Positions 43,745 to 64,000 of a stretch of DNA of 64,000 nt are shown piece after piece; the first letter of the stretch is position 1, and the number at the start of each line of letters is the position of its first letter. A program made the translations under genes and the position numbers. Origin of the DNA: Cyclobacteriaceae bacterium (GTDB lineage Bacteria > Bacteroidota > Bacteroidia > Cytophagales > Cyclobacteriaceae); assembly GCA_028281285.1 (NCBI GenBank), contig JANQKF010000013.1, forward strand, positions 372,001 through 436,000. Direction: 5' to 3'. The notes under the pieces are model-generated. The model ran no database searches, had not been told where the DNA came from, and saw only the letters and a list, made by a program, of their open reading frames with translations.

Positions 43745-44077
43745 ATGAAAGGAACTAATCTGGGAGAATTCGAAGAGCTAGTCTTACTGACCATTGCGGC
43801 TTTGATGGAAGAAGCGTATAGCGTTTCTATCTGTGATGAGATTGAGCGCATCACGGAGCGAAAGATAAAGTTGGGGGTGGTTCATTCGGTTCTCAATCGA
43901 CTGGAGAAGAAAGGCTACGTCCAATCGCATCTCGGTGAAGCTACTAAGGTGAGAGGAGGTAGACGAAAAAGATTCTTCACCGTCACGCATGCCGGGAAAG
44001 CCACATTGCACAAGGTCAAAGAGCAACGCGATCAACTTTGGAACCTGATTCCGGAGTTCACCATGAAACTGGTATGA
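43745..44077 (+). CDS. PadR family transcriptional regulator (paralogue 1)
   Basis: A 110-residue winged-helix protein opening MKGTNLGEFEELVLLTIAAL, followed by the recognition helix region (ERKIKLGVVHSVLNRLEKKG) and wing GGRRKRFFTVTHAG with the R-G-G-R-R-K-R motif. A C-terminal helix (VKEQRDQLWNLIPEF) would dimerise, as in the short PadR-s2 class. Family members repress nearby transporter genes, usually in response to a small ligand. Its TGA overlaps the ATG of the permease at 44074 (ATGA), so the two are translationally coupled. Confidence 0.93.
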   Translation: MKGTNLGEFEELVLLTIAALMEEAYSVSICDEIERITERKIKLGVVHSVLNRLEKKGYVQSHLGEATKVRGGRRKRFFTVTHAGKATLHKVKEQRDQLWNLIPEFTMKLV

Positions 44078-46719
44078 AGACAGAGAAAACTCATTTACCA
44101 CCAAAATGGGCCGAGAGGGTCTTGGAATGGTACTGCCGACCCGGAGTGTTGGAAGACCTTCAAGGTGACTTACATGAGTTTTTTGATCGCAATCTCGAAA
44201 ACAAAGGTCCATTTAGAGCCAAGGTGAACTACGTCATCGATGTGGTCAAATTCATGAGGCCCTATACAGTAAAGAAACTTGAAATATTAGACAACATAAC
44301 CACTTTTATCATGTTCAAAAATTACTTCAAAACTTCAATCAGAAGCATAGGAAGAAACAAACTCTTTTCTGCCATTAATGTCATCGGATTGGCCATCAGC
44401 ATGTCTGTATGCCTGCTAATGATCTCCTTCTTATCTGAAGTATTCAGCTATGACAACTTCCATGTTGATAAGGATCGCATGTATAGAATAATGACTTCCA
44501 ATCAATTCTTACAGGAAGATCCAAGTGATTTTGCATCAACCTCAGTCCTCGTAGGAAAACGATTACAGGAAGAAGTTCCGGGTATTGAATCCTCCGTGAT
44601 TATGCGGAGGAATTTTGGAGGCGATGCGAAGATTGGAGACAAAACCATACCCATCAGCGGAATTTGGGCCGGAGAAGGGTTCTTTGATGTTTTCAAAGCT
44701 TTCCCTCTGATTCAAGGAAACCCCGAAACTGCCCTCAAAGAGCCTTACTCCATTGTACTGACAGAAGAAGCTGCTGTCAAGCTCTTTGGAGATGAAGATC
44801 CGATGGGCAAGATCATTCAACTTAGAAGCGAAAACAGTTATACAGTTACTGGTATCGTCCAAAAGCCTCCACACAATTCCCATTTTACTTTTGAAACTTT
44901 GGGCTCGTTCATCACTTATGAAAACGAGCGAAAGAAAAATTCTACTGGGAATTATTGGATAAGCTGGAACGACATCTGGTCCAACTATGTCTATATGGTG
45001 TTGGAACCGAACACCTCGGCATCACAAGTCAATGCTGCTCTTAAAGCCATTCAGGATGAAGAAAATGCAAAAAATGATCGAGTCAATAATTATGTAAAGC
45101 TTCAATCGATAGGCGCAATCATGCCAGGTCCAGATCTGTCCAACAACATTGGAAAGTCAATGAATACCAGTATTCTATGGCTGCTTTCCGGACTGACATT
45201 TATCGTAATCCTTTGTGCCGGGTTCAATTATACCAATCTGTCAATAGCAAGATCACTTCGAAGAGCCAAAGAGGTTGGTGTGAGAAAAGTAGTAGGCGCC
45301 TCCAGAAAGCAGGTGTTTTCACAGTTCATTGTTGAGGCCATTATCATCTCGTTGATTTCACTGGTTTTTGCCACATTGTTATTCTATGTGATTAAGCCGG
45401 AATTCTTGAATCTGGATGGAGAAATTCAGGAAGTGGCCAAGATTCAAACTACCCCAACATTGTTTATATACTTTTTTGTTTTCAGCATTGTTATTGGAAT
45501 CATGGCTGGGTTTTTCCCGGCAGTTTTCCTATCAAAACTGAAGGCTGTCAAGGTACTGAAAGATGCCGGGTCCACCACCCTATTCAAGAAAATCAACATG
45601 CGTAAAGTGTTGATCGTAGTTCAATTCACCTTATCTCTTGCGTTTATTATTTCCGCAACAATTGGCTATCGTCAGTATAAATATGCACTTGCCTTTGACT
45701 TGGGGTTCAAGACCGAGAATGTCCTTAATGTCAGACTAAGTGGCAATGATGCCAACACTGTAGCCAATGCGTTCAGGTCTATCCCTGAAGTCACGGAAAT
45801 ATCAAAATCATTGATGATCCCGAGTATTGGTAACCGCTATGGGAACACACTCAAATATGATGACCCCATGGATAGCGTAACCCTGTACTATAACATCATT
45901 GATGAAAACTATATTCCTCTGATGGATCATGATCTTGTAGCCGGGACAAACTTTGAAAGCAGGCCTGAACAAGAAAAAGAGGAGGTAATCATCGTTAATG
46001 AACAAGTCCTTAAAAGATTCAACATCGGCACCCCCGATGAAGCAATTGGCAAGCAAATTCAACTTGGAGGAGGTACTAATGGAAATAAAGTCAGGATTAT
46101 TGGTGTGGTCAAGGACTTCCATTATGCCAAGATTAGTGACGGTATCAAATCCTTTGGATTCAGGTATCGTCCTGGCGAATACGACTATCTCAACTTAAAA
46201 ATCAATACCAACGATATCGTTGGAACTATGGATAAACTCAAATCCGCATGGCTAGACATTGACGATGTCCACGAATTTAGTGCAATGTTCTATGATGAGC
46301 GGATTGAGCGCGCCTATTCCGAGTTTTCGGTAATGTTTACCATTGTTGGTTTTCTGGCATTCATCACTATATCACTTGCCGCTTTGGGATTATTAGGTAT
46401 GGCGGTATACACGGCAGAAACAAGATTGAAAGAAATCAGCATTAGAAAAGTTCTCGGTGCTACCGAAGGCAGTCTAATCAAACTGTTGGCAAGAGGGTTC
46501 ATGTGGCTTCTAATTATTGCAGCTTTAATTGCTGTGCCAGCTACTTATTTCTTATTTGATTCCGTTGTACTTGCACAATCTGTCAATAGAATTTCGATAG
46601 GAATAATAGAACTTATGTCTGGAGTAGTCGTGATTTTTGCCATTGGATTCCTGACCATTGGTTCCCAAACCTTGAAAGCCGCAAAATCGAATCCGGCAGA
46701 AACACTGCGAACAGAATAA
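44074..46719 (+). CDS. Orphan MacB/FtsX-type permease with N-terminal prefix domain (1)
   Basis: An 881-residue membrane protein. Residues 1-78 form a soluble prefix (LEWYCRPGVLEDLQGDLHEF at about 18-37), then TM1 (about 99-121), a MacB-like periplasmic domain (about 125-360), three membrane segments with FtsX motif AKEVGVRKVVGASRKQVFSQ (from about 365), a fifth (LIVVQFTLSLAFIISATIGY, about 512), a second periplasmic domain and three last membrane segments with KEISIRKVLGATEGSLIKLL. This duplicated FtsX layout is that of MacB-like and orphan permeases. No ATPase is encoded nearby. The frame is open 12 codons earlier, inside padR, but the ATG in ATGA at 44074 is the natural start. A terminator follows. 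Confidence 0.85.
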   Translation: MKTEKTHLPPKWAERVLEWYCRPGVLEDLQGDLHEFFDRNLENKGPFRAKVNYVIDVVKFMRPYTVKKLEILDNITTFIMFKNYFKTSIRSIGRNKLFSAINVIGLAISMSVCLLMISFLSEVFSYDNFHVDKDRMYRIMTSNQFLQEDPSDFASTSVLVGKRLQEEVPGIESSVIMRRNFGGDAKIGDKTIPISGIWAGEGFFDVFKAFPLIQGNPETALKEPYSIVLTEEAAVKLFGDEDPMGKIIQLRSENSYTVTGIVQKPPHNSHFTFETLGSFITYENERKKNSTGNYWISWNDIWSNYVYMVLEPNTSASQVNAALKAIQDEENAKNDRVNNYVKLQSIGAIMPGPDLSNNIGKSMNTSILWLLSGLTFIVILCAGFNYTNLSIARSLRRAKEVGVRKVVGASRKQVFSQFIVEAIIISLISLVFATLLFYVIKPEFLNLDGEIQEVAKIQTTPTLFIYFFVFSIVIGIMAGFFPAVFLSKLKAVKVLKDAGSTTLFKKINMRKVLIVVQFTLSLAFIISATIGYRQYKYALAFDLGFKTENVLNVRLSGNDANTVANAFRSIPEVTEISKSLMIPSIGNRYGNTLKYDDPMDSVTLYYNIIDENYIPLMDHDLVAGTNFESRPEQEKEEVIIVNEQVLKRFNIGTPDEAIGKQIQLGGGTNGNKVRIIGVVKDFHYAKISDGIKSFGFRYRPGEYDYLNLKINTNDIVGTMDKLKSAWLDIDDVHEFSAMFYDERIERAYSEFSVMFTIVGFLAFITISLAALGLLGMAVYTAETRLKEISIRKVLGATEGSLIKLLARGFMWLLIIAALIAVPATYFLFDSVVLAQSVNRISIGIIELMSGVVVIFAIGFLTIGSQTLKAAKSNPAETLRTE

Positions 46720-46749: not shown

Positions 46750-46788
46750 CAGTCATCAGCAATTACAGTTGATGACTGTTTCTTTTTT
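46750..46788 (+). terminator. Terminator after permease 1
   Basis: Stem CAGTCATCAGC (46750-46760) / GTTGATGACTG (46768-46778), 11 bp with one G-T pair and a 7-nt loop, followed by TTTCTTTTTT. It is 31 bp after the stop. Confidence 0.85.
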
Positions 46789-46859: not shown

Positions 46860-47204
46860 ATGAAAGGAACCAACTTAGGAGAATTTCAGGAACTCGTCTT
46901 GTTGACTATCGGGTCCTTACATCCGGAGGCATATGGTGTAGCCATCAAAGAAGAGATTTATGCTCATACAGGTAGGAAAGTGACTTTAAGTACAGTACAT
47001 GCTGCACTCAACCGCCTGGAAAAGAAAGGTCTTGTTAAAAGTGACCTGGGTGAAGCAACTAAAATCAGAGGGGGAAAGCGCAAACGCTACTTCACCATTA
47101 CCGCCTATGGTGTAAGAATGTTGTCAGAAGCCAAACAGCAGCGTGAGTCGCTCTGGAATTCAATTCCTGATATCGTGTTTCAAGTGAACCTCAATGGCAG
47201 TTAA
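46860..47204 (+). CDS. PadR family transcriptional regulator (paralogue 2)
   Basis: A 114-residue winged-helix regulator with MKGTNLGEFQELVLLTIGSL, helix VTLSTVHAALNRLEKKGLVK and the wing RGGKRKRYFTITAYG. It is close to paralogue 1 over the whole length. It lies 71 bp ahead of the permease at 47276, without the overlap seen in the other three pairs, and is preceded by two identical 17-bp repeats that are probably its operator. Confidence 0.93.
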   Translation: MKGTNLGEFQELVLLTIGSLHPEAYGVAIKEEIYAHTGRKVTLSTVHAALNRLEKKGLVKSDLGEATKIRGGKRKRYFTITAYGVRMLSEAKQQRESLWNSIPDIVFQVNLNGS

Positions 47205-47275: not shown

Positions 47276-49966
47276 ATGAATCAAACCACACGTGATCATA
47301 TCCCACCAAGGCTCGCCAGAAGTTTTCTTCGCTGGTATTGCAAGCCAGGACTCCTGGAAGATATTGAAGGAGATATTCACGAGGACTTCAATAAAAGGTA
47401 TATGCGATCCGGGGCAAGGTCGGCCCGGTTTTATTACGTGCTCGATGTCATTCGGTTTTTCAGGCCCTTTGCCATCAGAAATTTCACAAAAATTCAACCT
47501 ATCAATCCAATGTTCAAGATCAACACAAGATTAGCATTCAGGAATCTTGCTAAGAACAAACTCTATTCTACCATAAATATAGCCGGCTTGGCACTGGGAA
47601 TTGCTGCCTGTCTGATGATTGCTCACTACGTCCTTTTTGAGTTAAGCTTCGATCAACAATTCCCAAATTCTGAATCGCTTTACAGAGTCCACACAAGCTA
47701 TTATCAAAATGGAGATTACCAAACAACCAATAAAGGATGTGGATTCGGATTGGGACCGGCATTAAGAAGAGATATTCCCGAAATTGCCAAATCCTCACTC
47801 ATTCACCACTACAATAGAGGTGCTATAGTAAGTCACGTACAAGACTCCTTGAGTCTAACACCCATTAGAGAACGAGGACTAATGTTTGCCGAGCCTGCCT
47901 TTTTAAGCATGTTCTCTCTTAACTTCATTCATGGCAACCCCCAAACCGCTCTGAATCATCATAAGTCGGTGATAATTACAGAATCCATGGTGCAGAAGTA
48001 CTTTGGTCAGGACCCAGGTTCTGTAGTCGGAAAAACGTTAAGAATCGTGGGTGAATGGGGTGAATCTGGTGACCATGAAATATCAGCTGTAGTCAGTGAC
48101 TTTCCATCAAACTCACATATCCGTTTTGACTTTCTTTTGCCTATCGCCAATGTCCTGAAAACGGACCAATACCAGAATGAAGAGGCTCGATGGAACTGGA
48201 CGAATTTCAACTTGTATGTACAGCTCACACCTTTAGCCACTGAAGCCGGTGTGGAACAAAAAATTAGTGGGCTAATGAAAACCTATATGGGAGAATCTCT
48301 TGAGCGCAACGGAGAAAACAGAATATTGCAACTTCAACGCATCACCGATATTCATCTGAAATCTGAGGTAAACAATGAGGCTGGCGGTGACTTACAGTCA
48401 GTCTACTTTCTAAGTATCATTGCTTTCTTTATCCTCATTATAGCTTGGGTCAATTTTGTTAATCTATCTACTGCCAGGGCGTATGACCGAAGTCGTGAGG
48501 TAGGTGTTAAAAAGAGTATGGGAGCCAAAAGACACCAACTGATCGGTCAGTTTCTGGTCGAATCATTTTGGATCAACATACTGGCAATGGTCGCTGGCCT
48601 GTTAATTACATATCTGCTATTGCCTTACTTGAGCTCTGTTGTAGGGCAAGACCTTCATCTGGATTTGACCAATACCCACATGCAGATTATGTTAATCGTT
48701 CTCATATTGACAGGCCCTATGGTGGCGGGAGCATACCCTGCGTTCTTCATGAGTTCCTTTGATACTATCAAGGCATTAAAAGGTCGACATGGTCAAAATC
48801 CCGGGCGTATCTCATTAAGAAAAACTCTTGTCGTTTTTCAGTTCATAATCTCTACGCTCATGATCACGGGAACTTTTGCAGTGACTGAACAACTGCGATT
48901 CATGCAGGAGAGTAAAACCGGGATCGATATGGAGCAGATACTTGTGGTTAAAGGACCTTCTGAAGATAACATGGGTGGATTTGAAAGTTTTAGGAATAGT
49001 GTGACTTCACTGCCCTCAGTAAAAAGCTTCAGTACATCAAGGAGTATTCCGGGGGCAGGCTACAACTGGTCCACAGAACTTATAAAAGAAGGTGCAGAAC
49101 GCTCAAGCCGAAAAGGCGCAAAGATCACCTGGGTAGATCACCACTTTTTTGAAACCTATCAGCTTGAAATGGTAGCAGGTCGCGACTTCACCGATGCCAT
49201 CAGAAGTGTTGGTGAACCAGGTTCTGACGAGGTAATCATTGTAAATGGCCTGATTATCAATGAGACCGTGGTAAAACTGTTTGACCTAGGTACCCCAGAG
49301 CAAGCCCTTAATGAAAAGCTCATTGCCAATGGTATTCCTCTAAAGATCCGAGGAGTAATGAAAGATCACAACTGGAGTTCATTGCATACTCCTGTTTCAG
49401 CAGGTATAATGATGTATACTCCAGATAACAATGAATATTTTTCTTTAAGGCTAAACAGCAGCATTATCGATGAAACCGTTGATGTTATAAAGAGTGCATA
49501 CCTTGAAAACTTTCCAGGAAATCCAGTAGAGTTGTATTTCCTGAATGATTTCTTCGATCGACAGTATCAGTCTGATCAACAATTTGAAACCATTTTCAGG
49601 TCGTTTGCCATGTTCGCGATCCTGGCCTCCTGCCTCGGTCTCTTTGGTCTGACGGCCTTTAACATGTTACATAAGAGGAAAGAAGTGGGCGTAAGGAAAG
49701 TCCTGGGTGCTAGCCTGACCAGTATCAGTTATACATTTTCTAAGGGCTACCTGGTTATGATCTTGTTCGCTAGTGCCCTTGCGCTACCCTTAGCCTATAT
49801 CGGCATTGATCGATGGATCAGAAATTTTGCTTATCAGACCCCGATAACCTTAAAACTACTGGTACTTCCCGTAGTCATACTGATGTTAATTGCATTACTC
49901 ACAATTTCATTCCATGCTATTAAAACCGCCCAAACCAATCCGGTCAATTGCCTTAGAAACGAATGA
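47276..49966 (+). CDS. Orphan MacB/FtsX-type permease with N-terminal prefix domain (2)
   Basis: An 896-residue permease of the same design as the one at 44074. Prefix residues 1-80 include LRWYCKPGLLEDIEGDIHED (18-37); TM1 is about 98-120 (INIAGLALGIAACLMIAHYV); periplasmic domain about 125-375; FtsX core with REVGVKKSMGAKRHQLIGQF near 408; the second half ends with EVGVRKVLGASLTSISYTFS and TISFHAIKTAQTNPVN. Its 5' region is nearly identical to that of the next gene at 50007, pointing to recent duplication. Only 40 bp separates the two, so they are likely co-transcribed. No ATPase gene is present. Confidence 0.85.
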   Translation: MNQTTRDHIPPRLARSFLRWYCKPGLLEDIEGDIHEDFNKRYMRSGARSARFYYVLDVIRFFRPFAIRNFTKIQPINPMFKINTRLAFRNLAKNKLYSTINIAGLALGIAACLMIAHYVLFELSFDQQFPNSESLYRVHTSYYQNGDYQTTNKGCGFGLGPALRRDIPEIAKSSLIHHYNRGAIVSHVQDSLSLTPIRERGLMFAEPAFLSMFSLNFIHGNPQTALNHHKSVIITESMVQKYFGQDPGSVVGKTLRIVGEWGESGDHEISAVVSDFPSNSHIRFDFLLPIANVLKTDQYQNEEARWNWTNFNLYVQLTPLATEAGVEQKISGLMKTYMGESLERNGENRILQLQRITDIHLKSEVNNEAGGDLQSVYFLSIIAFFILIIAWVNFVNLSTARAYDRSREVGVKKSMGAKRHQLIGQFLVESFWINILAMVAGLLITYLLLPYLSSVVGQDLHLDLTNTHMQIMLIVLILTGPMVAGAYPAFFMSSFDTIKALKGRHGQNPGRISLRKTLVVFQFIISTLMITGTFAVTEQLRFMQESKTGIDMEQILVVKGPSEDNMGGFESFRNSVTSLPSVKSFSTSRSIPGAGYNWSTELIKEGAERSSRKGAKITWVDHHFFETYQLEMVAGRDFTDAIRSVGEPGSDEVIIVNGLIINETVVKLFDLGTPEQALNEKLIANGIPLKIRGVMKDHNWSSLHTPVSAGIMMYTPDNNEYFSLRLNSSIIDETVDVIKSAYLENFPGNPVELYFLNDFFDRQYQSDQQFETIFRSFAMFAILASCLGLFGLTAFNMLHKRKEVGVRKVLGASLTSISYTFSKGYLVMILFASALALPLAYIGIDRWIRNFAYQTPITLKLLVLPVVILMLIALLTISFHAIKTAQTNPVNCLRNE

Positions 49967-50006: not shown

Positions 50007-52685
50007 ATGAAGGTCTCAATTAAGACATATAATCCGCCCAAATTACCCCAGCGCTTCCTTCGATGGTATTGCAAACCAGAACTTCTGGAAGATATTGAAG
50101 GGGATATTCATGAGGACTTTAACAAAAGATATATACGATCCGGGGCAAGGTCGGCCCGGCTTTATTACATACTCGATGTCATTCGGTTTTTCAGGCCCTT
50201 TACCATCAGAAATTTTATGAAAACTCAAATTATCAATCCAATGTTCAAGATTAACACAAGAATAGCGTTCAGGAATCTTGCCAAGAACAAACTCTATTCA
50301 TTCATCAACATTACCGGGCTAGCCATTGGAATAGCAGCCTGTCTAATAATTGCTCATTACGTAATCTTTCAACTCAGCTTTGATCGATTCCATGAAAATG
50401 CTGAGTCTGTATATCGCGTCAACACAACAACCTATCAAAATGAGGAATATGTTGGAACCGGTATTTATTGTGGTCATGCTCTTGCACCTGCCCTCAAACG
50501 AGATGTTCCTGAAATCTCCAAGTACTCCAGGGTACACCCCGAATATGGAGGAGCCATAATGAATCGGGTGATTGATGGGGAAGATTCAGAGCCCTTTAGA
50601 GAGCAGAATATCATCTATGTGGAACCGGCTTTTTTGGAAATGTTCACCATTGACTTTCTTCAGGGTGATCCGGCCACTGCTTTGGATGATGTGAATTCAC
50701 TGCTTATTAGCGAATCCATGGCTAAGAAGTATTTCGGTGATGAGGCCAACAATGCACTCGGCCAATTCATCAAAGCATCAGGGAGTTGGGGCAACGGCAC
50801 GCTGGAAGTCACTGGTATATTCAAGGATTATCCTGCTAATTCTCATTTGGACTTCGACTTTTTAAAACCCATTAGCAAGGTAGTTGAACAAAACAACTAC
50901 GCTGAAGAAGGTACAAATTGGGGTTGGACCAACTTCTTCATGTATGCTCAGTTGGGTGAAAATGTAAGCCAGGATATTGCAGGAGAAAAAATCGCTGATC
51001 TGATGCATACATATACACCGGAGGACCTTGAATCAACCTCTCAACGGGTGGTATTAACCCTTCAACCAATTACTGATATTCATTTAAAGTCTGATGTAGA
51101 CGATGGCGATGGAGAAATAGCCGATACCAAAAGCATCAATTCGGTCTACTTCATGATCCTGATTGCAGGCTTTATTCTCATTATTGCCTGGATCAACTTT
51201 ATAAATCTTTCAACCGCCAAAGCCACTGAGCGTGGCCTGGAAGTGGGTATCAAAAAAGCGATCGGAGCCCATCGTTCTCAATTGATCTCTCAGTTTCTTA
51301 CGGAGTCCTTTTGGATAAACTTCATCGCCATATCTCTGGCACTTGGCTTCACCTACCTCCTATTGCCAATACTAGGAAATACCATTGGGGAACCATTGAA
51401 TTTGCAATTAGGTCATCCCGTGGTACTAGGCGGTATCGTTGGGTTGGTCTTCATCGGTCCTCTTCTGGCCGGAGTATATCCTGCATTTGTGTTGTCCTCA
51501 TTCAAAACCGTAAGTGCTCTCAAGGGAAACCAGTCCATCAAAATGAAGTACCAGTTTTCGATCAGAAAGGGACTTGTGGTATTTCAATTTGTGATATCCA
51601 CCTTGTTAATAGCCGGTACGTTCACGGTTTCCAAGCAAATTGACTTTATGCGTAATGGAGATACTGGTTTCAATCGATCAGAAGTGCTAGTGATTAAGGG
51701 GCCAAGCATAGGAGTGACTCGGGCAAAATTCGATGTTTTCAAAAATAGTATGCTCTCCTTCCCTGGGGTCGAAAACATGGGAACCTCCAGGAGCGTACCT
51801 GGGGCTGGATATAATTTTGCCACTTCAGGTCGAAATGCACTGGCTGAAAAAAGTACGGAACAACGAATTGAAGTCACTTGGGTTGATCCGGATTTCATTC
51901 ATACCTATGATCTGGAACTTATTGCAGGCAGGGACTTTTCAGATGCTATCGAAGATGGACCCAATGGTGCTTTAGTGAGCGCATTTTCTGTAGAGGCATT
52001 CAACCTTGGAACCCCTGAAGAAGCCATAGGGAAAAGAATCTTAATTAGTGAAGATACAGTCTTTGTTAGAGGAGTAATCGAAGATCATAATTGGCAATCA
52101 CTTCACCGCGCGTACATGCCCAGTGCTTTACTACACATTCCTGCTACAGTGAGATACATGTCCATTCGAATTAATCCACAAAACGCCCAATCAGTAATCC
52201 AGGAGGCTGAGAAACAATTTATGGATGTTTTTCCGGGCAACCCGTTGGAGTATTATTTTATGGACGACTTCTTCAATCGTCAATATGAGGATGACCAACA
52301 GTTTGGTAAAATATTCAACGCCTTTGCAGGGTTTGCAATCTTCGCGGCTTGTCTTGGCCTATTCGGACTGGCATCTTACAGCGTAGTTCAGAAAGCAAAG
52401 GAGATCGGGATAAGAAAAGTACTGGGTGCAAGTAGTTCACACATTACCATGCTCTTTTCAAAGCGTTATATGATTTTGGTAGTAGTTGCCAATTTGATTG
52501 CTATACCATTGAGTTATTTTGCAATGAAGCAATGGCTATCAGATTATGCTTTTAGTATTCCGATAACAATAGACTTATTCATACTACCAATTCTGCTTTT
52601 GGCCATTATTGCTACCGTGACCATAATGATGCAAACTGTTAGAGCATCGATGGCCAACCCGGTCAAGAACTTGAGAGCTGAATAG
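50007..52685 (+). CDS. Orphan MacB/FtsX-type permease with N-terminal prefix domain (3)
   Basis: An 892-residue paralogue of the preceding gene. Prefix: LRWYCKPELLEDIEGDIHED (18-37) then FNKRYIRSGARSARLYYILD; TM1 about 99-120 (INITGLAIGIAACLIIAHYV); MacB-like periplasmic domain with VEPAFLEMFTIDFLQGDPAT; FtsX motif LEVGIKKAIGAHRSQLISQF; second half with KEIGIRKVLGASSSHITMLF. It has no PadR of its own and shares the regulator of the preceding gene. It ends at a strong terminator, which closes the padR2-permease-permease unit. Confidence 0.85.
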   Translation: MKVSIKTYNPPKLPQRFLRWYCKPELLEDIEGDIHEDFNKRYIRSGARSARLYYILDVIRFFRPFTIRNFMKTQIINPMFKINTRIAFRNLAKNKLYSFINITGLAIGIAACLIIAHYVIFQLSFDRFHENAESVYRVNTTTYQNEEYVGTGIYCGHALAPALKRDVPEISKYSRVHPEYGGAIMNRVIDGEDSEPFREQNIIYVEPAFLEMFTIDFLQGDPATALDDVNSLLISESMAKKYFGDEANNALGQFIKASGSWGNGTLEVTGIFKDYPANSHLDFDFLKPISKVVEQNNYAEEGTNWGWTNFFMYAQLGENVSQDIAGEKIADLMHTYTPEDLESTSQRVVLTLQPITDIHLKSDVDDGDGEIADTKSINSVYFMILIAGFILIIAWINFINLSTAKATERGLEVGIKKAIGAHRSQLISQFLTESFWINFIAISLALGFTYLLLPILGNTIGEPLNLQLGHPVVLGGIVGLVFIGPLLAGVYPAFVLSSFKTVSALKGNQSIKMKYQFSIRKGLVVFQFVISTLLIAGTFTVSKQIDFMRNGDTGFNRSEVLVIKGPSIGVTRAKFDVFKNSMLSFPGVENMGTSRSVPGAGYNFATSGRNALAEKSTEQRIEVTWVDPDFIHTYDLELIAGRDFSDAIEDGPNGALVSAFSVEAFNLGTPEEAIGKRILISEDTVFVRGVIEDHNWQSLHRAYMPSALLHIPATVRYMSIRINPQNAQSVIQEAEKQFMDVFPGNPLEYYFMDDFFNRQYEDDQQFGKIFNAFAGFAIFAACLGLFGLASYSVVQKAKEIGIRKVLGASSSHITMLFSKRYMILVVVANLIAIPLSYFAMKQWLSDYAFSIPITIDLFILPILLLAIIATVTIMMQTVRASMANPVKNLRAE

Positions 52686-52690: not shown

Positions 52691-52727
52691 TCAAGAAGGT
52701 CGGTCTAAAATGACCGACCTTCTTTTG
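52691..52727 (+). terminator. Terminator after permease 3
   Basis: Perfect 13-bp stem AAGAAGGTCGGTC (52693-52705) / GACCGACCTTCTT (52712-52724), 6-nt loop, then TT. It is 8 bp after the stop codon. Confidence 0.85.
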
Positions 52728-55725: not shown

Positions 55726-58331
55726 AGCCTCGCAACAACATATCGCCACCAAAGTATTATGAACAATTCTTCGAATGGTTTTGTCGTCCGGAGTATTTCG
55801 AAGAATTGCAAGGGGACTTGGAAGAGCGGTATGAAAGAAACTGTATCGAATTAGGCCAAAAAAAGGCCTCAGGAATATACAAAAGGGAGGTACTCAAAAT
55901 GTTCCGCCCATCGGTCATTAAAAAAATCAACACTCAATATCGATTAAACAACATTGCCATGTTCAAAAATTATTCATTGGTCGCCCTTCGCAGTATTGCC
56001 AGAAACAAGCTATTCTCAGCCATTAACATTATTGGTCTGTCCATAAGCATGATGGTCGGTCTCCTTGCTATTTCCTTTATTAGTGAGCTTTACAGTTATG
56101 ACACCTTTCATGAAAAGAAAGACAGAATCTACCGCGTGATCAATACTCTTCATGAAGAAGGGGAAGATCCGGCATACTATGCCAGTACCTCACCATTGAC
56201 CGGTCAACGGCTATCTGAAAACTATTCTGGTTATGAAAAAGTGGTGACGATTTATCGGGGTTTCTCAGCAGATGTGAAAAGAGATGACCAGAAGATTCCT
56301 ATAGCTGGGTTTTACGCCAGTGAAGCGTTCTTCGATGTATTCACATTTACTATGTTATCAGGGGACCATAAACGTACGTTGACCGACCCCTATACCATCG
56401 TACTTACCCGGGCATCTGCTGAAAAAATCTTCGGCAAGACAGATGTTGTCGGTGAGATCATAGAATTGAATGACAATATTCAGCTGACGGTCACAGGAGT
56501 CGTTGAGAACCCACCCAGAACCTCGCATATGAGTTTCGAGGCAATTGTCTCATTCGAAACCCTGAAGAAGGTACAAGACCCGAAACGTATCATGAGATGG
56601 TCAAACATGTGGAATAGCCATGTATATGTTTTGCTCCCACAGGGTACCCATCCAGAAGATCTTCAGGCCAATCTTGAGGAGATAGCCACTCAAGAAAATT
56701 CCTCCTTCGGTACGAGCTCAGTAGAAATGGAATTCCAATCACTTAATTCGATTTTTCCGGGCAAAAAACTCTATAACCAGCTTGGCGCCCGAATGGAAAT
56801 CAAGAACGTCAATTATATGATCATTCTGGCAGTCATAGTCCTGGCCTCCGCTGCCTTCAACTACACCAATTTGTCGGTCGCACGAGCCTTAAAACGATCT
56901 AAAGAAGTTGGTATTCGAAAGGTTGTTGGTGCCAGGAAAGGACAAGTATTCCTACAATTCATACTGGAGGCGATAATTATTTCGACTGTTGCGTTAGTCT
57001 TTGCCTACTTTCTCTTCCAACTCATCAGACCAGAATTCCTTTCTCTTAATAGAGACATTCAACGGACAACCACCCTTGAACTCTCATTCATCCACTATAT
57101 CTACTTTTTTGTGTTTTCGGTAGTAATTGGGATCATTTCGGGACTTCTACCCTCAGCAGTTCTTTCAAGGCTAAAACCATCCACAATATTGAGAGGCAGC
57201 ACGCAATTGAAGGTAACTTCAGGATTCACTCTTAGAAAATTATTGATTGGTCTGCAATTCACCTTATCCATGGCATTCGTAATACTCGTCAGTCTGGCTT
57301 ACAAACAATACCAATTCAATTTGAATTTTGATCTGGGATTCGAAACGGCAGATATACTTAATGTGAGAGTTCAGGGCAATGATTCAGAACTATTGACAAA
57401 TAGCTTCTCACAGGTTCCGGGCGTGAGTTCTGTTTCCAAATCCAGTTGGATACCAAGCGTTGGGTCTTTTTGGACAACCCGAGGAAAGTACATCGAAGGT
57501 GACAATTCCACCACAGTGCATTTACTGAATGTGGACGCCAACTACTTAGACAATCTGGGACATCAAGTACTTGCCGGAAGAAGTTTTACTGAAGGCATGA
57601 CAGTGCCTCAGGTCGTAGTCAATCAGAAGTTGCTGAAGCACTTCGAAATGGGTGAACCGGTTGATGCCATAGGTAAACATATTCGCCTTGAGGGAAAAGA
57701 CAGGGCCATTATCGGAGTTGTGAAAGACTTTCAGCATGCTACGCTTGACAATGAAATCTTTCCATTCGCTTTTCTGAATGAACCTGATAACTATCAGCTA
57801 ATCAATCTAAAAATTGAAAGTGCCGACAACATCAACACAATGCAGCAAATTGAGGAAAAATGGTCGGAACTGGATCCCAGCCATGAATTTCAGGCTTTCT
57901 TTTACAAGGATCGTATCGAACGGGCTTACTCCAAACTTTCCACTTCACTTCAGACACTCGGTCTGCTTGCCATCATCGCAGTATCTATTTCGATTCTCGG
58001 ACTTCTGGGAATGGCTGTATACACCACCGAATCCAGAATCAAGGAACTTACCATTAGGAAGGTGTTAGGAGCTAGTGTTCAAAACCTTATAACCCTGTTG
58101 TCTAAGAACTTTTTACTGATGTTTGTCATCGCCTCTGGCATTACCATTCCGGTAACCATTTACGCTTTTGAGAATTGGATCGTTCCAAACCTCGTCCACC
58201 GGATTGATATTGGTTTCTGGGAAATTGGCAGCGGTTTACTGGCCATATTGGTTCTTGCAACACTCACCATTGGTTCGCAAACACTCAAAGCAGTGAAAAG
58301 AAACCCCGTGGAACACTTAAGAAATGAGTAA
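55722..58331 (+). CDS. Orphan MacB/FtsX-type permease with N-terminal prefix domain (5)
   Basis: An 869-residue permease. The start is taken as the TTG at 55722, overlapping the PadR stop, because it gives (M)KPRNNISPPKYYEQFFEWF, equivalent to the other prefix starts; an in-frame ATG at 55686 would lie 37 bp inside padR. The prefix has FFEWFCRPEYFEELQGDLEE (about 16-35) and EVLKMFRPSVIKKINTQY. TM1 is about 99-121, FtsX motif KEVGIRKVVGARKGQVFLQF near 400, second half KELTIRKVLGASVQNLITLL. Its last 8 bp overlap the next permease, so the two are a coupled pair. Confidence 0.83.
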   Translation: MKPRNNISPPKYYEQFFEWFCRPEYFEELQGDLEERYERNCIELGQKKASGIYKREVLKMFRPSVIKKINTQYRLNNIAMFKNYSLVALRSIARNKLFSAINIIGLSISMMVGLLAISFISELYSYDTFHEKKDRIYRVINTLHEEGEDPAYYASTSPLTGQRLSENYSGYEKVVTIYRGFSADVKRDDQKIPIAGFYASEAFFDVFTFTMLSGDHKRTLTDPYTIVLTRASAEKIFGKTDVVGEIIELNDNIQLTVTGVVENPPRTSHMSFEAIVSFETLKKVQDPKRIMRWSNMWNSHVYVLLPQGTHPEDLQANLEEIATQENSSFGTSSVEMEFQSLNSIFPGKKLYNQLGARMEIKNVNYMIILAVIVLASAAFNYTNLSVARALKRSKEVGIRKVVGARKGQVFLQFILEAIIISTVALVFAYFLFQLIRPEFLSLNRDIQRTTTLELSFIHYIYFFVFSVVIGIISGLLPSAVLSRLKPSTILRGSTQLKVTSGFTLRKLLIGLQFTLSMAFVILVSLAYKQYQFNLNFDLGFETADILNVRVQGNDSELLTNSFSQVPGVSSVSKSSWIPSVGSFWTTRGKYIEGDNSTTVHLLNVDANYLDNLGHQVLAGRSFTEGMTVPQVVVNQKLLKHFEMGEPVDAIGKHIRLEGKDRAIIGVVKDFQHATLDNEIFPFAFLNEPDNYQLINLKIESADNINTMQQIEEKWSELDPSHEFQAFFYKDRIERAYSKLSTSLQTLGLLAIIAVSISILGLLGMAVYTTESRIKELTIRKVLGASVQNLITLLSKNFLLMFVIASGITIPVTIYAFENWIVPNLVHRIDIGFWEIGSGLLAILVLATLTIGSQTLKAVKRNPVEHLRNE

Positions 58332-60945
58332 AGTGGAGTTATTCCCTGCCCCTCCAAAGCGATGGACTCGATTCTTCGAGTGGTTTTGCAATGAGGTTTA
58401 TTTCGAAGAGCTGCAGGGCGATTTAGAGGAGCGGTATTTCCGGAATTGTGGGCGTTTTGGGGTCAGAAAGTCTAAAGCGATTTACCGGAAAGAGATCCTT
58501 AGGATGTTTCGGCCATCAGTGATCAAAAAAATCAAAACTCAATATCAACTTAACAACAGTGCTATGTACAAGAATTATTTGATGGTTGCATTCCGCAACC
58601 TATCCCGAAATAAACTTTTTTCATCCATCAACATTGTTGGTCTTGCTGTCAGCATGGCTGTTGGTCTGCTGGCGATCACCTTCGTTAGTGAAATCCATAG
58701 CTATGATCAGTTTCATGACTTCAAAAGTGATATCTATCGAATCAACAATCTTCGGATCAACATTGGTCGAAGTACAACCGATTATGCCACCACCTCATTG
58801 TTGATGGGTAGGAGACTACAGGAGGAGTCAACCAATTTTGACATGATCGTCCCAATTTTTAATGGATTTAATGGTGATTTGATACATGATGAGAAGCACT
58901 TTCAAATTAAGGGGCAGTATGCAGGGGAAGATTTTCTGAATTTATTTACGTTTCCCCTACTTTCGGGCAATCCCGAATTGGCCCTTAGTGAACCTTTTAC
59001 GGTATTGATCACAGAAGAACTGGCGATCAAAATTTTCAACGCTACAGATGTGGTTGGAGAAGTTCTTGAAAAAAACGAAGAACTCTATACGATCACGGGG
59101 GTACTCAAGAATCCACCTTTAACATCACATATCAAGTTTGATGCAATAGCATCACTCAAAACTTTTGAGGCAAAGCCCTCGCCACGGAGGACTCGAATAC
59201 TGAATGACTGGGGGACGATGTGGAGTAGCTATGTCTATGGAAGATTATCCAAGAATTCTAACCTGCAAAGGGCACAAGAAGAGTTGGATAGAATTGCCCA
59301 AGAGGAAAATGCCAAAGTTGAGCATTTCCGAATCGAACCACATATGGAATCTCTTACAGACATATTCCCTGGAGATGGAAAAAACAATCAAATGAGCATC
59401 GTTATGCCGAAACGGAGCATTAATCAGGTAGTAATTCTCGCACTGATTGTCCTTTTCTCGGCATGTTTTAATTATACCAACTTATCCATTGCACGATCAT
59501 TACGAAGAGCGAAAGAGGTCGGAGTCAGAAAAGTGGTGGGTGCCAAAAAGGCTCAGCTTTATTTTCAGTTCATTCTGGAAGCCATTTTAGTTTCCGTTCT
59601 TGCACTGGTTATTGCCTTTTTTCTATTCAAGTTGATCAGGCCTGGGTTCATTGAGCTAAATTCCTATACTCTGAGCACCACAACGTTGGAGCTAACACCA
59701 AAGATCTACTTATACTTCAGCATATTTGCCCTGCTCATTGGTTTTCTGGCTGGAACCTTACCTGCTTTGCTTATGAGTAAAATCAAAACAATCCATGTGC
59801 TCAAAGGAATTTCAGGACGGAGTAGTTCAAAAGGGTTTAATCTTAGAAGAGTAATTGTCGGTTTGCAGTTTACCCTTTCAGTGGGCTTTGTGATTTTGGT
59901 TGGTTTAGCTCAAAAACAATACAAATACGCCCTCAATTTTGATCTTGGTTATACCACGGATAACATCGTCAATATCTATCTGGATGGACGAGATCCTTCA
60001 CTCCTGTCCACCGAACTAAAGAAGATTCCGGGGGTTGAAAGCCTATCCACCATCTATTTTCTCCATAGCACTGGTACTTTGAATTCAGACTATGTATCCA
60101 ATATACAAGGAACTGATTCAGTCATTACCTACAATAACTATATCGACTATGACTACCTGGATAATATGAATCATAAGATCATAGCCGGACAGAATTTTAC
60201 TGCAGATGGACCCGCCAATCAAGCCATCGTGACCGAATCACTACTTCAAAAGTTAAGTCTCGGTAACCCGGCAGAAGCGATTGGAAAAGAGTTTAAATTT
60301 TATAACCAAAACCGGCTCATTGTTGGAGTCGTGGAGAACTTCCACTATGGCACCATTTTTAACACACTACAACCTTATGCCTTTATTCTGGATCGGGATA
60401 GGGAAATGTATTATATGAATGTGAAACTTAACGGTAACGATATACTGGGGACTATGGATAAAATAGAAAAGGCATGGACTCAACTGTATCCGGAAGAAGA
60501 ATTTTATGCCACATTTTATTCTGACGCCATAGAAAGAACCTACAGCGGTATCTCTTCGTCCATAAAGACCTTCGGCCTTCTCGCCTTTGTGGCAATCTCG
60601 ATTTCATTACTTGGGTTACTGGGTATTGCGGTTTACACCACTCAATCAAGAATCAAGGAAATCACGATTCGTAAAGTATTGGGAGCTTCATTGAACAACC
60701 TTGTATTGCTCCTTTCAAAAAACTTCCTGATCATATTTCTCATCTCATCGGTAGTCGCCATCCCTTTGGCCTACAGCCTATTCAAGAGTTTGGTATTGAG
60801 GAATATTGAATACAGAATTTCAGTGGGCTTCTGGGAGCTTGCCGGTGAAGCACTAATAATTATCATTATTGCTTTGTTAACTATTGGATCTCAGACATTC
60901 AGGGCAGCAAAGTCAAGTCCCGCTGTGAATCTGAGGGACGAATAA
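58324..60945 (+). CDS. Orphan MacB/FtsX-type permease with N-terminal prefix domain (6)
   Basis: An 873-residue paralogue of the preceding gene: prefix RFFEWFCNEVYFEELQGDLE (16-35) and EILRMFRPSVIKKIKTQYQL, TM1 about 103-125 (INIVGLAVSMAVGLLAITFV), FtsX motif KEVGVRKVVGAKKAQLYFQF, second half KEITIRKVLGASLNNLVLLL. The ATG overlaps the previous stop (ATGAGTAA), so translation is probably coupled and the two may work as a heteromeric permease. It has no PadR of its own and ends at a terminator. Confidence 0.85.
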   Translation: MSKVELFPAPPKRWTRFFEWFCNEVYFEELQGDLEERYFRNCGRFGVRKSKAIYRKEILRMFRPSVIKKIKTQYQLNNSAMYKNYLMVAFRNLSRNKLFSSINIVGLAVSMAVGLLAITFVSEIHSYDQFHDFKSDIYRINNLRINIGRSTTDYATTSLLMGRRLQEESTNFDMIVPIFNGFNGDLIHDEKHFQIKGQYAGEDFLNLFTFPLLSGNPELALSEPFTVLITEELAIKIFNATDVVGEVLEKNEELYTITGVLKNPPLTSHIKFDAIASLKTFEAKPSPRRTRILNDWGTMWSSYVYGRLSKNSNLQRAQEELDRIAQEENAKVEHFRIEPHMESLTDIFPGDGKNNQMSIVMPKRSINQVVILALIVLFSACFNYTNLSIARSLRRAKEVGVRKVVGAKKAQLYFQFILEAILVSVLALVIAFFLFKLIRPGFIELNSYTLSTTTLELTPKIYLYFSIFALLIGFLAGTLPALLMSKIKTIHVLKGISGRSSSKGFNLRRVIVGLQFTLSVGFVILVGLAQKQYKYALNFDLGYTTDNIVNIYLDGRDPSLLSTELKKIPGVESLSTIYFLHSTGTLNSDYVSNIQGTDSVITYNNYIDYDYLDNMNHKIIAGQNFTADGPANQAIVTESLLQKLSLGNPAEAIGKEFKFYNQNRLIVGVVENFHYGTIFNTLQPYAFILDRDREMYYMNVKLNGNDILGTMDKIEKAWTQLYPEEEFYATFYSDAIERTYSGISSSIKTFGLLAFVAISISLLGLLGIAVYTTQSRIKEITIRKVLGASLNNLVLLLSKNFLIIFLISSVVAIPLAYSLFKSLVLRNIEYRISVGFWELAGEALIIIIIALLTIGSQTFRAAKSSPAVNLRDE

Positions 60946-60964: not shown

Positions 60965-60997
60965 AAGCAGTGAAATGGGCATTTCACTGCTTTTTTT
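60965..60997 (+). terminator. Terminator after permease 6
   Basis: Stem AAGCAGTGAAAT (60965-60976) / ATTTCACTGCTT (60981-60992) with loop GGGC, followed by a run of T. It is 20 bp after the stop. Confidence 0.88.
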
Positions 60998-61006
60998 ATA
61001 CCCAAG

Positions 61007-61060: not shown

Positions 61061-61080
61061 GTTGGATAAAGTCAAATTCT

Positions 61081-61422
61081 ATGAAAGGATCACATTTAGG
61101 TGAGTTTCAGGAAGTAGTTCTCCTGGTAATTCTTTCCCTCGATGACAATGCTTATGGAGTCACCATTAAGCAAGAAATCGCAGAGAAAGTGAATCGAAGT
61201 ATCAGCCGAGGAGCACTTCATACCGCACTTACAAGACTGGAAGAAAAGGGATTCATTACATCTGAACAAGGTGAATCACATCCTGATCGAGGAGGCCGGA
61301 AGAAGAGGTACTACACAGTGACCAATAAAGGGGTTGCCGCTCTACATGATGCCAAGAGCATCCGAGACCAGCTGTGGAATCAAATTCCGAGACTTAAACT
61401 TTATCCCGGTTATGACAAATGA
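61081..61422 (+). CDS. PadR family transcriptional regulator (paralogue 4)
   Basis: A 113-residue winged-helix regulator with MKGSHLGEFQEVVLLVILSL, helix SISRGALHTALTRLEEKGFI and wing RGGRKKRYYTVTNKG. Its last 11 bp overlap the start of the permease at 61412. Upstream are a terminator and paired direct repeats. Sequence and neighbourhood are closest to paralogue 3. Confidence 0.93.
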   Translation: MKGSHLGEFQEVVLLVILSLDDNAYGVTIKQEIAEKVNRSISRGALHTALTRLEEKGFITSEQGESHPDRGGRKKRYYTVTNKGVAALHDAKSIRDQLWNQIPRLKLYPGYDK

Positions 61423-64000
61423 TCGCCCATCTCCTCCCCCACTCTACGAACGTCTGTTTGAGTGGTTTTGTAAAGAAAATGCCTTTGATGAACTCCAGGG
61501 AGACTTGGAAGAAGAATTCCAGCAGAACTATCGAAAGCATGGAATCAAGACGGCCAACAAGCTCTATAAAAGAGAAGTCATTCGCATGATGAGGCCTTCT
61601 GTAATCAAAAAACTCAAATCAAATCGACAATCAAATTTTTCATCCATGTTTAGAAATTACACCATCGTTGCGTTCAGAAGTATTGCAAGAAACCGATTGT
61701 TTTCGTCCATCAATATCTTTGGACTGGCTATTAGTATGGCTGTTGGCCTTCTGGCTATCTCGTTTCTATCGGAAGTGTACAGCTACGACAAATTCCATGA
61801 AAACCGGGATCGGTTGTATAGAATAGTGACGGATTTACACCGACAAAATGGAGCAATTGCCAACTATGCAACAGCTTCAATCTATACCGGAACACGTTTG
61901 GCGACTGACTTTACGGGCTTTGAAGCCGTTGCTCCGATTACAAAGGGGTTAAGGGGTAACATTGCTGTTGGTGAATCATCAATTCCGATAAATGGAATCT
62001 ATACGAACAACGACTTTTTTAAAGTTTTCTCCTTCGAATTATTGTCTGGAGACCCATCAAAAGTTTTACTTGAGCCGAACGAAGTCATTTTAACCGAGAC
62101 AACGGCAAGAAAGATATTCAATCGGATTGATGTGGTTGGCGAAGTGATTCGGTTCGAAAATGGCACCCAGTACAAAATCACCGGGATTGCCAAAGATCCG
62201 CCAAACTACTCACATTTGAAATTCGAGGCGATAGGATCCTTGATTACTTTACAGGAAAAGAATCGCAGTGTAACAACCGACTTTGGGGTCATTTGGAGCA
62301 GTTATGTCTATGTATTATTACCGGAAGGCTACAGTTTAGACCAGGTTCAACAAAATCTTGACCGGTTGGCCGAGGAAGAGAATCCAAAACTGGTTTATTG
62401 GACGCTGTCAATGGGATTGCAAAACATCGATGATATTTTTCCAGGTGATGGTCGATACAACCAGTTTTCTGTGGTCATGCCCAAAGAAAAAGTCACTTCT
62501 GTAGTGATTTTGGCACTTATTGTTTTATTCTCAGCCTGCTTCAATTATACCAACTTATCACTTGCCAGATCCCTTAAGCGAGCAAAGGAAGTAGGAGTCA
62601 GAAAAGTTGTTGGTGCCAGAAAAGGAAACCTGTTCTTTCAATTCATTCTTGAAGCAATCATGGTATCACTGGTTTCAGTAGTGATTTCGTTTTTATTGTT
62701 CAATGTGGTCAAGTCAGAATTTTTGTCTCTCGACTTATACATCGAAAGGACATTGACACTGGATGTTAGCACCCAGGTTTATTTCTACTTTATAATTTTC
62801 GCAATTGCGATTGGATTTCTAGCAGGCCTATTCCCCTCTTTGATTATGACACGTTTCAAGCCTGTCAATATTCTAAAAGGAGCCAGCTCCATCAAAACCG
62901 GAAATGGGGTGGGTATAAGAAAGGTTCTTGTGGCCATCCAGTTCGCACTATCCATGGGATTTGCCACTCTTGTCGTCATGGCCTATAAGCAGTACAACTA
63001 TGCGTTGAATTTTGACCTCGGCTTTGAAACTGAAAACATATTAAATGTTGATCTACAGTTCAATGATGTGGACTTGGTAAAAAATCAATTTTCCAGGATC
63101 CCAGAGGTGACAGGCATTTCCTCTTCGAGCATCTTGGCCAGTACTGGCAGTTCACAGTCAAACTGGGTCAAGTATAAGGATCGGCTGGATTCCGTGAACA
63201 GTTACACTTTCGATGTGGACTATAGTTATTTCAAGAATATGGGCCATGAACTGGTAGCAGGAACAGGTTTTGATGAAGGCAATGATCAAGGCAAAATCGT
63301 AGTGACTGAATTACTTGTCAAAGAACTTGGAATCAACTCACCATTTGAAGCGATTGGAGAGACAATCAGTTATTTCCAGAAAAACTGGACGATCATAGGA
63401 GTGGTAAAAGACTTCCACTATGGCACCATCAATGATGAAATCTCCCCTTTTGTTTTCACCAGTGGCAGACAGGACCATTACAATATCAATCTAAAAATAA
63501 GCTCAACGAATATTGTTGAAACGATGCGATCTCTTGACGAGGCTTGGAGGCAAGTTGACCAGGCAAATGCCTTTCAGGCAAAGTTCTATGACGAATGGTT
63601 TGAACTTACTTACCAAGAGATCTCCGCCTCTATGAAGATTTTTTCCTTTCTGGCCGGAATCGCCATTTGCATTTCAATTCTGGGTTTGTTAGGCATGGCC
63701 GTTTACACAGCTGAATCAAGGGTGAAGGAACTTGCCATTCGTAAAGTCCTGGGGGCTACGTTGTCGAATTTATTGGTACTGCTTAGCAGAAACTTCATTG
63801 TGATATTCATAATCTCTGCCTTAGTGGCTATACCCGCAGCCTACTATCTCTACCAAGAAACCATTGTGGCAGACGCCATCTACAGCATCGAACTTGGCTT
63901 CTGGGAGTTTGGCAGTGGGGCGTTGTTGATTATTATCATCGCCCTATTGACTATTAGTAGTCAAACTATGAAGGCTGCAAGATCTAACCCTGCGGAAAGC
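61412..64000 (+). CDS. Orphan MacB/FtsX-type permease with N-terminal prefix domain (7), 3' end cut by window
   Basis: An open frame of 863 codons from the ATG at 61412 to the window edge, ending RSNPAES; homologues end within about five residues of that motif, so only the extreme C-terminus is missing. Prefix: LFEWFCKENAFDELQGDLEE (about 15-34) and EVIRMMRPSVIKKLK; TM1 INIFGLAISMAVGLLAISFL; MacB-like periplasmic domain; FtsX motif KEVGVRKVVGARKGNLFFQF; second half KELAIRKVLGATLSNLLVLL. It overlaps padR 4 by 11 bp, in another frame. It is closest to permeases 5 and 6. No frameshift was seen when reading it through. Confidence 0.85.
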   Translation, partial: MTNDRPSPPPLYERLFEWFCKENAFDELQGDLEEEFQQNYRKHGIKTANKLYKREVIRMMRPSVIKKLKSNRQSNFSSMFRNYTIVAFRSIARNRLFSSINIFGLAISMAVGLLAISFLSEVYSYDKFHENRDRLYRIVTDLHRQNGAIANYATASIYTGTRLATDFTGFEAVAPITKGLRGNIAVGESSIPINGIYTNNDFFKVFSFELLSGDPSKVLLEPNEVILTETTARKIFNRIDVVGEVIRFENGTQYKITGIAKDPPNYSHLKFEAIGSLITLQEKNRSVTTDFGVIWSSYVYVLLPEGYSLDQVQQNLDRLAEEENPKLVYWTLSMGLQNIDDIFPGDGRYNQFSVVMPKEKVTSVVILALIVLFSACFNYTNLSLARSLKRAKEVGVRKVVGARKGNLFFQFILEAIMVSLVSVVISFLLFNVVKSEFLSLDLYIERTLTLDVSTQVYFYFIIFAIAIGFLAGLFPSLIMTRFKPVNILKGASSIKTGNGVGIRKVLVAIQFALSMGFATLVVMAYKQYNYALNFDLGFETENILNVDLQFNDVDLVKNQFSRIPEVTGISSSSILASTGSSQSNWVKYKDRLDSVNSYTFDVDYSYFKNMGHELVAGTGFDEGNDQGKIVVTELLVKELGINSPFEAIGETISYFQKNWTIIGVVKDFHYGTINDEISPFVFTSGRQDHYNINLKISSTNIVETMRSLDEAWRQVDQANAFQAKFYDEWFELTYQEISASMKIFSFLAGIAICISILGLLGMAVYTAESRVKELAIRKVLGATLSNLLVLLSRNFIVIFIISALVAIPAAYYLYQETIVADAIYSIELGFWEFGSGALLIIIIALLTISSQTMKAARSNPAES

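Follow-up and report, generated by a model that had tools for sequence, protein, structure and literature searches.

PadR regulators covary with an N-terminal prefix, and not with the body, of tandem orphan permeases in a Roseivirga genome

The stretch analyzed here, 64,000 nt from the genome of a Cyclobacteriaceae bacterium of the genus Roseivirga (the window, whose coordinates are used for all features of the array), carries a tandem array of PadR regulator genes and large permeases of the FtsX/MacB type. All but one of the seven permeases begin with a cytoplasmic prefix of 62 residues, matched by the NCBIfam model perm_prefix_2 (NF038404; prefix_2 below). The sequence-only reading of this DNA had proposed co-variation of PadR and permease as the check on their pairing. 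We found that the outcome differs between the parts of the permease: in three data sets the N-terminal prefix co-varies strongly with the PadR, while the body does not. The units are thus PadR-prefix pairs on interchangeable bodies rather than co-inherited regulator-permease pairs, and the permease is, as judged from these alignments, modular, consisting of a PadR-matched prefix and an independent body. This is a new result.

Distance matrices of the PadR, the prefix, and the permease body were compared by Mantel permutations. For 47 pairs from the host genome, the correlation of PadR with prefix was 0.377 (0 of 5,000 permutations), whereas that of PadR with body was 0.048 (1,402 of 5,000). 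The same was observed for 62 pairs from a further genome, G007 (r of 0.355, 0 of 2,000, for the prefix; 0.069, 435 of 2,000, for the body), and for 23 pairs from three genomes of other genera (0.518, 0 of 2,000; 0.033, 708 of 2,000). With a body r of only 0.03 to 0.07 in the three data sets, co-evolution of the PadR with the whole permease was rejected. In the host genome, the nearest PadR belonged to one of the three nearest prefixes in 32 of 47 cases (null mean, 3.0; maximum, 11), as against 3 of 47 for the three nearest bodies (null, 3.1). In sliding windows, the signal drops where the prefix ends, ahead of the first transmembrane helix (TM1). One of 48 host pairs had been dropped before these counts, as had 1 of 21 later permeases of the host and 2 of 26 of the other genera, for their length or for want of a full-length first partner; in G007, 12 of 105 prefix_2 permeases, by our own count from unit patterns, could not be assigned to a PadR within a stretch and were left out. 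Genomes G034 and G285 were sampled in part.

Permeases that stand further along a unit behave in the same way. In the host genome, the first permease of the same unit supplied the nearest prefix among the 47 for 20 of 20 later permeases, but by body for only 10 of 20; the own-unit prefix was nearest in 27 of 31 cases in G007 (body, 9 of 31) and in 23 of 24 in the three genomes of other genera (body, 0 of 24). Adjacency to the PadR alone is therefore insufficient as an explanation. Within units, prefixes average 72% identity (41 to 100%) and bodies 39%, and the prefix is the more similar part in 74 of 75 comparisons, so that simple tandem duplication does not suffice either.

Residue covariation was computed over 132 pairs of a PadR and its first permease (effective number, 65) as mutual information (MI) with average product correction, and was compared with the maximum of 60 shuffles (0.203). 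Four PadR-prefix pairs exceeded this maximum: 31-31 (0.474), 74-19 (0.368), 46-52 (0.307), and 85-13 (0.217), the PadR position being given first. The top pair is a charge swap, with opposite charges in 58 of the 132 (28 minus/plus and 30 plus/minus) and like charges in 1 (minus/minus; none were plus/plus), and it is alone among 242 testable charged column pairs: its r is -0.68, and the next is -0.38 (mean, -0.01; standard deviation, 0.12). Independent contrasts on the PadR tree, for 172 pairs made up of the 132 and 40 from separate loci, were complementary in 20 of 25 cases with 5 ties and none opposite; on the prefix tree, they were complementary in 20 of 23 with 3 ties and again none opposite. 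The 40 separate loci, from 18 genomes outside the discovery set, had 10 opposite and 2 same-sign pairs at 31-31 (null, 5.4 and 4.0; P of 0.006 by a permutation that ignores phylogeny). Later permeases likewise had 31 opposite and 2 same-sign pairs among 75. A further 34 pairs from named loci, with 19 opposite and none same-sign, were left out of all counts because many of them are orthologues of the window units. In the window itself, the residues at 31-31 of each PadR and its first permease are D/R, E/K, D/R, and Q/Q. The second pair combines R or K at PadR 74 with E or D at prefix 19 in 102 of the 132 pairs and at 30 of the 40 separate loci.

The covarying positions were placed on the PadR fold by motif, using the small-PadR motifs in the relevant part of PMC3506622 and the LftR DNA-contact mutants in that of PMC6457526; the mapping is our own, with alignments to Protein Data Bank (PDB) entries as a guide and no superposition. 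As far as these parts of the two papers go, position 31 belongs to helix 2, positions 44 to 48 to the recognition helix, and 73 and 74 to the wing. Since three of the four best-covarying PadR positions fall in helix 2, the recognition helix, or the wing, docking of the prefix on or beside the DNA-binding face would be most likely. The second prefix helix is acidic, with a mean net charge of -4.4, and residues 40 to 80 of the PadR are basic (+5.3), which would make competition with DNA for the PadR the most natural mechanism. In an AlphaFold2 model of the first permease of the array, permease 1 (mean predicted local distance difference test score, 88.8; predicted template modelling score, 0.79), three prefix helices (residues 11 to 20, 23 to 44, and 46 to 60) precede TM1 and two MacB-like halves; three helices were also predicted when the prefix was modeled alone (mean score, 76.4). 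The best PDB match of permease 1 in Foldseek was E. coli YbbAP (E of 7.3e-20; TM-score by query length, 0.39), with MacB, LolCDE, and BceAB lower. Divergence is greatest on the periplasmic side: paralogues of the host genome resemble one another least in the two periplasmic domains (26% and 25%, versus 33 to 36% elsewhere), and between permease 1 and seven orthologues, these domains reach 52% and 56%, versus 66 to 82% elsewhere. This pattern fits a specialization for different ligands or signals.

The association with a prefix is also seen in gene order. A survey of 60 stretches of the host genome with our own profiles counted 153 permease open reading frames (ORFs), 73 with prefix_2 and 80 without, and 54 PadR ORFs. 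Of the prefix_2 permeases, 48 lie directly behind a PadR and 21 further along a PadR-headed unit; only 4 of the 80 others lie directly behind a PadR, and all four carry another prefix, perm_prefix_1 (prefix_1). In this genome, the PadR is therefore tied to a prefix of either kind and not to the permease itself. A PadR was found upstream at 40 of 40 separate loci, which we had picked by hand in the 18 other genomes from the matches of a phylum-wide sample and which are mostly single or first matches. On a body tree of 149 of the 153 permeases (one FastTree topology), the labels prefix_2, prefix_1, and none change 37 times, versus a mean of 52 and a minimum of 43 in 500 shuffles; the prefix is thus partly co-inherited with the body, yet has been gained or lost many times.

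The four prefix_1 permeases, at C37:195599, C31:43556, C37:57375, and C17:18393 (contig handle and position), each adjoin one of eight high-scoring PadRs and make up a minor second system in the same genome, of the HAAS type described in the literature (see below). Tandem arrays lacking both prefix and PadR lie at C26:60232-91996 (13 permeases), C28:211937-248098 (15), and C1:408213-429986 (9, running to the end of the contig), and an ABC_tran match was seen in none of them. At C3:115669-115842, a prefix_2 match with an internal TGA stands near prefix-less permeases, as if the prefix had been lost. One PadR-linked permease, at C12:97481-100453 (L036), is split between ORFs of 596 and 355 aa that overlap and may be frameshifted or decayed.

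Upstream of the first PadR gene of the array, an inverted repeat of the form GCATAAAAAAT-N16-ATTTTTTATAC at 43683-43720, on neither strand in particular, is the predicted operator of unit 1. When the window is aligned with the orthologous upstream regions, 11 in all, of ten Roseivirga records and a Cytophagia metagenome-assembled genome (MAG), most positions of the arms TTTGTATAAAAAAT and ATTTTTTATACA are conserved and far fewer of the intervening bases; a search with the arm pattern found the repeat at a single place in the genome. A first scan for inverted repeats, at a score of at least 10, gave 12 of 48 PadR units versus 2.2% in shuffles and 2 of 26 prefix-less permease controls versus 1.2%, but it caught short-loop hairpins resembling the terminators of preceding units, and a narrower test was therefore adopted (spacers of 12 to 22 bases, score of at least 8, within 100 bp). 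By this test, 17 of 48 PadR genes have a repeat, versus 2.85 expected, as do 2 of 26 controls, versus 0.98. The best repeats vary by unit, and no single motif common to the operators of the 48 PadR units was seen. Repeats that are enriched and differ between units suggest that each PadR autoregulates through unit-specific predicted operators.

The permeases of the array have no ATPase gene beside them, and their sequences bear on how they might be powered. A coupling-helix motif after the second transmembrane segment of each half is a feature of ABC exporters. Among 73 sequences, each half has one such motif, with the consensus KEVGVRKVxGA and KEIxIRKVLGA, respectively; G408, R791, and G795 are invariant, R397, E400, K405, K786, E787, and K792-L794 are at least 90% conserved, and the model of permease 1 has short helices at 398 to 406 and 785 to 793. 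Motifs near-invariant in both halves argue for an ATPase acting in trans. Six exact DEPTGNLD sites occur in the host genome. At C13:25543-29075 (L149:3544-7076), a TolC-type outer membrane protein is encoded together with an ATPase resembling DarD (282.6 bits, against a cut-off of 375) and an adaptor resembling DarC (164.4 bits, against 450). The 11 kb examined around this cassette showed no coupling motif, and the nearest MacB_PCD matches on its contig, among the matches listed, are ~12 and ~21 kb off. The cassette adjoins a divergently oriented sigma-54 response regulator and histidine kinase. This permease-less cassette may, speculatively, be a shared engine that powers the permeases in trans.

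On balance we lean toward a model in which each unit is a membrane-to-gene circuit, with the PadR repressing its own unit, the prefix serving as a tag that grips the PadR of that unit, and the bodies being swappable. The small PadR would bind the inverted repeat before its own gene and keep expression of the unit low, as the conservation and enrichment of such repeats suggest. The three-helix cytoplasmic prefix, which covaries with its cognate PadR, would bind it preferentially, docking on or beside the DNA-binding face and competing with the operator; the PadR-prefix pairing would be what evolution keeps matched. A ligand or strain at the periplasmic domains could then move the body, change the grip of the prefix on the PadR, and alter permease expression in either direction. 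As modules of the DarB/YbbP type, the bodies would be interchangeable sensors or pumps that still use an ATPase in trans, perhaps that of the DarD/DarC/TolC-like cassette.

Several known systems are related to these units. Passages of PMC11237479 propose that HAAS domains, some of which are fused to FtsX/MacB_PCD, signal to PadR, and describe the domain as three consecutive helices, the third kinked at a GxP. For prefix_2, three helices are predicted; its consensus shows no GxP, and an RP comes after helix 3. The prefix_2/PadR pair resembles the proposed HAAS-PadR dyad in that a stand-alone PadR gene adjoins one for an FtsX/MacB_PCD protein headed by an alpha-helical domain, as those passages describe it; it differs in that the pairing was here examined by covariation and residue pairs and in that one genome holds 74 prefix_2 matches versus 4 of prefix_1. 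That prefix_2 is a divergent HAAS domain was considered and dropped as a claim of homology: the two are alike by eye, but hhalign, with prefix_1 sequences standing in for HAAS, found nothing significant, and reversed profiles scored higher. Pfam models other than MacB_PCD and FtsX gave no match to the window permeases at an E of 0.001. Both YbbAP of E. coli and the Dar-type (darobactin) exporters have an ATPase gene of their own. The window permeases share with them the duplicated FtsX/MacB_PCD architecture and a DarB model match below cut-off, but have no neighboring ATPase gene; more broadly, they carry the coupling-helix motif of MacB/LolCDE/Dar-type ABC exporters, while the fused or neighboring ATPase is absent from the array. 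BceAB-BceS flux-sensing modules are comparable in that a type VII permease presumably signals to a regulator, and BceAB appears in the list of PDB matches of permease 1; here, a PadR takes the place of the histidine kinase, and there is no local ATPase. ADOP permeases are defined as internally duplicated FtsX permeases without an adjacent ATPase gene. The array is like ADOP (TIGR03434) with padR_acidobact (TIGR03433) in having a duplicated FtsX permease, no neighboring ATPase, and an adjoining PadR, and differs in its host, a member of the Bacteroidota, and in its scores, which are well under both cut-offs. Kinship to ADOP, as supposed from the sequence alone, holds up, although at 117.5 to 286 bits, the seven permeases fall far below the TIGR03434 cut-off of 622.3; ADOP is the best NCBIfam match of all seven. 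HAAS-PadR signaling and ADOP have already been proposed or named; the prefix-level PadR pairing was found in none of the open-licence PMC papers searched.

The pattern might arise from linkage alone, with PadR and prefix traveling as one DNA block, recombination between prefix and TM1, and gene conversion within units, and no contact between the proteins. PadR and prefix are indeed adjacent and overlapping, the covariation break coincides with a domain border, and prefixes within a unit can be up to 100% identical. We nevertheless consider this improbable: prefixes of later permeases match even though a whole, often unrelated body intervenes, 34 of 75 within-unit prefix pairs share less than 70% identity and so are not recent copies, and linkage predicts no residue-specific charge swap, whereas 31-31 gives 58 to 1 and its contrasts 20 to 0 with 5 ties. 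An unlikely but somewhat more serviceable account holds that the proteins are ordinary type VII exporters or mechanotransmitters with few shared ATPases in trans, the PadR being a plain ligand-sensing repressor and the prefix serving to anchor or stabilize. It is in keeping with coupling-helix motifs that rank with the best-conserved positions, with YbbAP as the best structural match, with the DarB model matching six of the seven permeases (at 98 to 130 bits, far under its cut-off of 700), and with the occurrence of a DarD/DarC/TolC-like cassette without a permease. It leaves unexplained the match of a prefix to one particular PadR, as well as why permeases directly behind a PadR in the host genome always carry prefix_2 or prefix_1. 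Least of all do we expect that there is nothing new here, the units simply being pairs of ADOP and PadR for which TIGRFAM and NCBIfam have names; padR_acidobact is the best NCBIfam match of the three PadRs scanned, and a passage of a Dyadobacter paper (PMC11573002) counts 28 and 33 RAST-annotated ADOP copies, but the scores are far under both family cut-offs, and our search of open-licence PMC papers found none on prefix_2 or its pairing with PadR.

Some results weigh against the membrane-to-gene circuit that we favor. One of the four covarying PadR positions, 85, falls beyond the wing and outside the winged-helix part, and the fold search found no PDB structure akin to the prefix alone (best E of its 12 matches, 5.0). 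Agreement of the nearest PadR with the three nearest prefixes is incomplete, at 32 of 47 in the host genome, 34 of 62 in G007, and 14 of 23 in the other genera. In the nearest-neighbor count for bodies, G007 reaches 10 of 62, just above its null maximum (mean, 3.1; maximum, 9), so that the body may carry a slight signal in that genome. Raw MI between PadR and body columns is also somewhat in excess (0.008 to 0.018, versus 0.032 for the prefix). Two of the 12 doubly charged pairs at the separate loci are same-sign, 4 of the 73 prefix_2 permeases have no upstream PadR, and a strong inverted repeat is missing at 31 of 48 units. The conserved coupling-helix motifs speak against a purely passive, sensory role of the permeases. 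Finally, kinship between prefix_2 and HAAS was not detected with hhalign, for which 16 prefix_1 sequences stood in for the published HAAS alignment: the probability was 0.66%, and 27 of 200 column-shuffled profiles and both reversed ones scored equally well or better.

The host genome assembly, of 40 contigs, totals 5.16 Mb. Among named organisms, permease 1 has its closest relatives in Roseivirga, with 78% identity in a Roseivirga MAG and 54 to 67% in ten further Roseivirga records. The genome holds 74 prefix_2 matches (73 above cut-off), 58 PadR matches (57 above cut-off), 4 prefix_1 matches, 48 ABC_tran matches (46 above cut-off), and at least 150 MacB_PCD matches (the best 150 of 295 candidates), bearing out the suggestion that the family is expanded in a Bacteroidota host. 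Recent amplification was rejected for the bulk of the family: the 66 full-length prefix_2 permeases of this genome average 29% identity, with a maximum of 67%. Of 18 other genomes of the genus searched, 16 had 11 to 105 prefix_2 matches; the two with none are both less than 85% complete. In the phylum sample, with the best 15 candidates per genome scored, 32 of 395 genomes had a prefix_2 match, 29 of them over the cut-off.

In the window, all eleven genes predicted at 43745-64000, four PadRs and seven large permeases, are present on the plus strand in the order first described, and the array extends past the window to a total of 9 permeases and 5 PadRs. MacB_PCD and FtsX exceed their Pfam cut-offs in all seven permeases, with two FtsX stretches in each and two MacB_PCD stretches in six; all four PadRs pass PF03551 (cut-off, 27 bits), PadRs 1 and 2 in the Pfam scan and PadRs 3 and 4 in the whole-genome PadR search, where their matches lie at C9:427441 (window 55441) and C9:433123 (window 61123). 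In the NCBIfam scan of the seven permeases, six pass the curated NF038404 cut-off of 35 bits, at 50.1 to 77.7 bits, and the permease at ORF 52831 has no match. Sequence reading shifted four starts, to ATG 44074, ATG 52861, TTG 55722, and ATG 61412, and PadR and permease genes overlap at 44074, 55722, and 61412.

Unit 1 consists of PadR 1 (43745-44077; 37 bits) and permease 1 (44074-46719), whose ATG overlaps the PadR stop and which has prefix_2, the putative PadR-matched tag, at 44098-44277 (83.1 bits in the genome search), followed by two MacB_PCD/FtsX halves. Unit 2 comprises PadR 2 (46860-47204; 39 bits), permease 2 (47276-49966; prefix_2 at 47303-47482), and, as its second permease, permease 3 (50007-52685; prefix_2 at 50034-50210). 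Permease 4 (52861-55308; 815 aa from ATG 52861; MacB_PCD, 63 bits; FtsX, 58 bits) is prefix-less and stands within the PadR array after a terminator-like hairpin, without a PadR of its own. It is followed by PadR 3 (55393-55725; 47.1 bits in the genome search; TIGR03433 below cut-off), permease 5 (55722-58331; prefix_2 at 55746-55925; its TTG overlaps the PadR stop), and permease 6 (58324-60945; prefix_2 at 58351-58530), and then by PadR 4 (61081-61422; 51.8 bits in the genome search) and permease 7 (from 61412 to 64000, continuing past the window end; prefix_2 at 61433-61612). Most units had been said to end in a terminator. Clear hairpins with T runs do stand after permeases 1, 3, and 6, at 46750-46778, 52698-52726, and 60965-60992 on the plus strand, closing unit 1, unit 2, and the unit of permeases 5 and 6, but there is no overall enrichment: 19 terminator-like sites were found versus 15.9 (standard deviation, 4.3) in shuffles, so meaning is limited to hairpins with such a placement. 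The descriptions of conserved translation genes nearby and of the permeases as orphans both stand, since upstream Pfam matches include EF-Tu, an amino acid kinase, and ribosome recycling factor, and the genome-wide search found no ABC_tran match in the array.

It is conceivable, although we regard it as rather doubtful, that the family works like phosphorylation-free two-component systems, each cell having dozens of PadR/permease circuits insulated from one another by a residue code that links helix 2, recognition helix, and wing of the PadR to a DNA-mimicking acidic helix of the prefix, with exchangeable periplasmic sensor bodies and a single shared DarCD-TolC engine driving all of them. The prefixed permeases offer a testable system, with a defined tag of 62 residues, four candidate contacts, a predicted operator, and a prediction of specificity. 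They would also provide a natural experiment on how cross-talk is avoided among many related pairs, comparable to that of histidine kinases and response regulators but based on a different chemistry.

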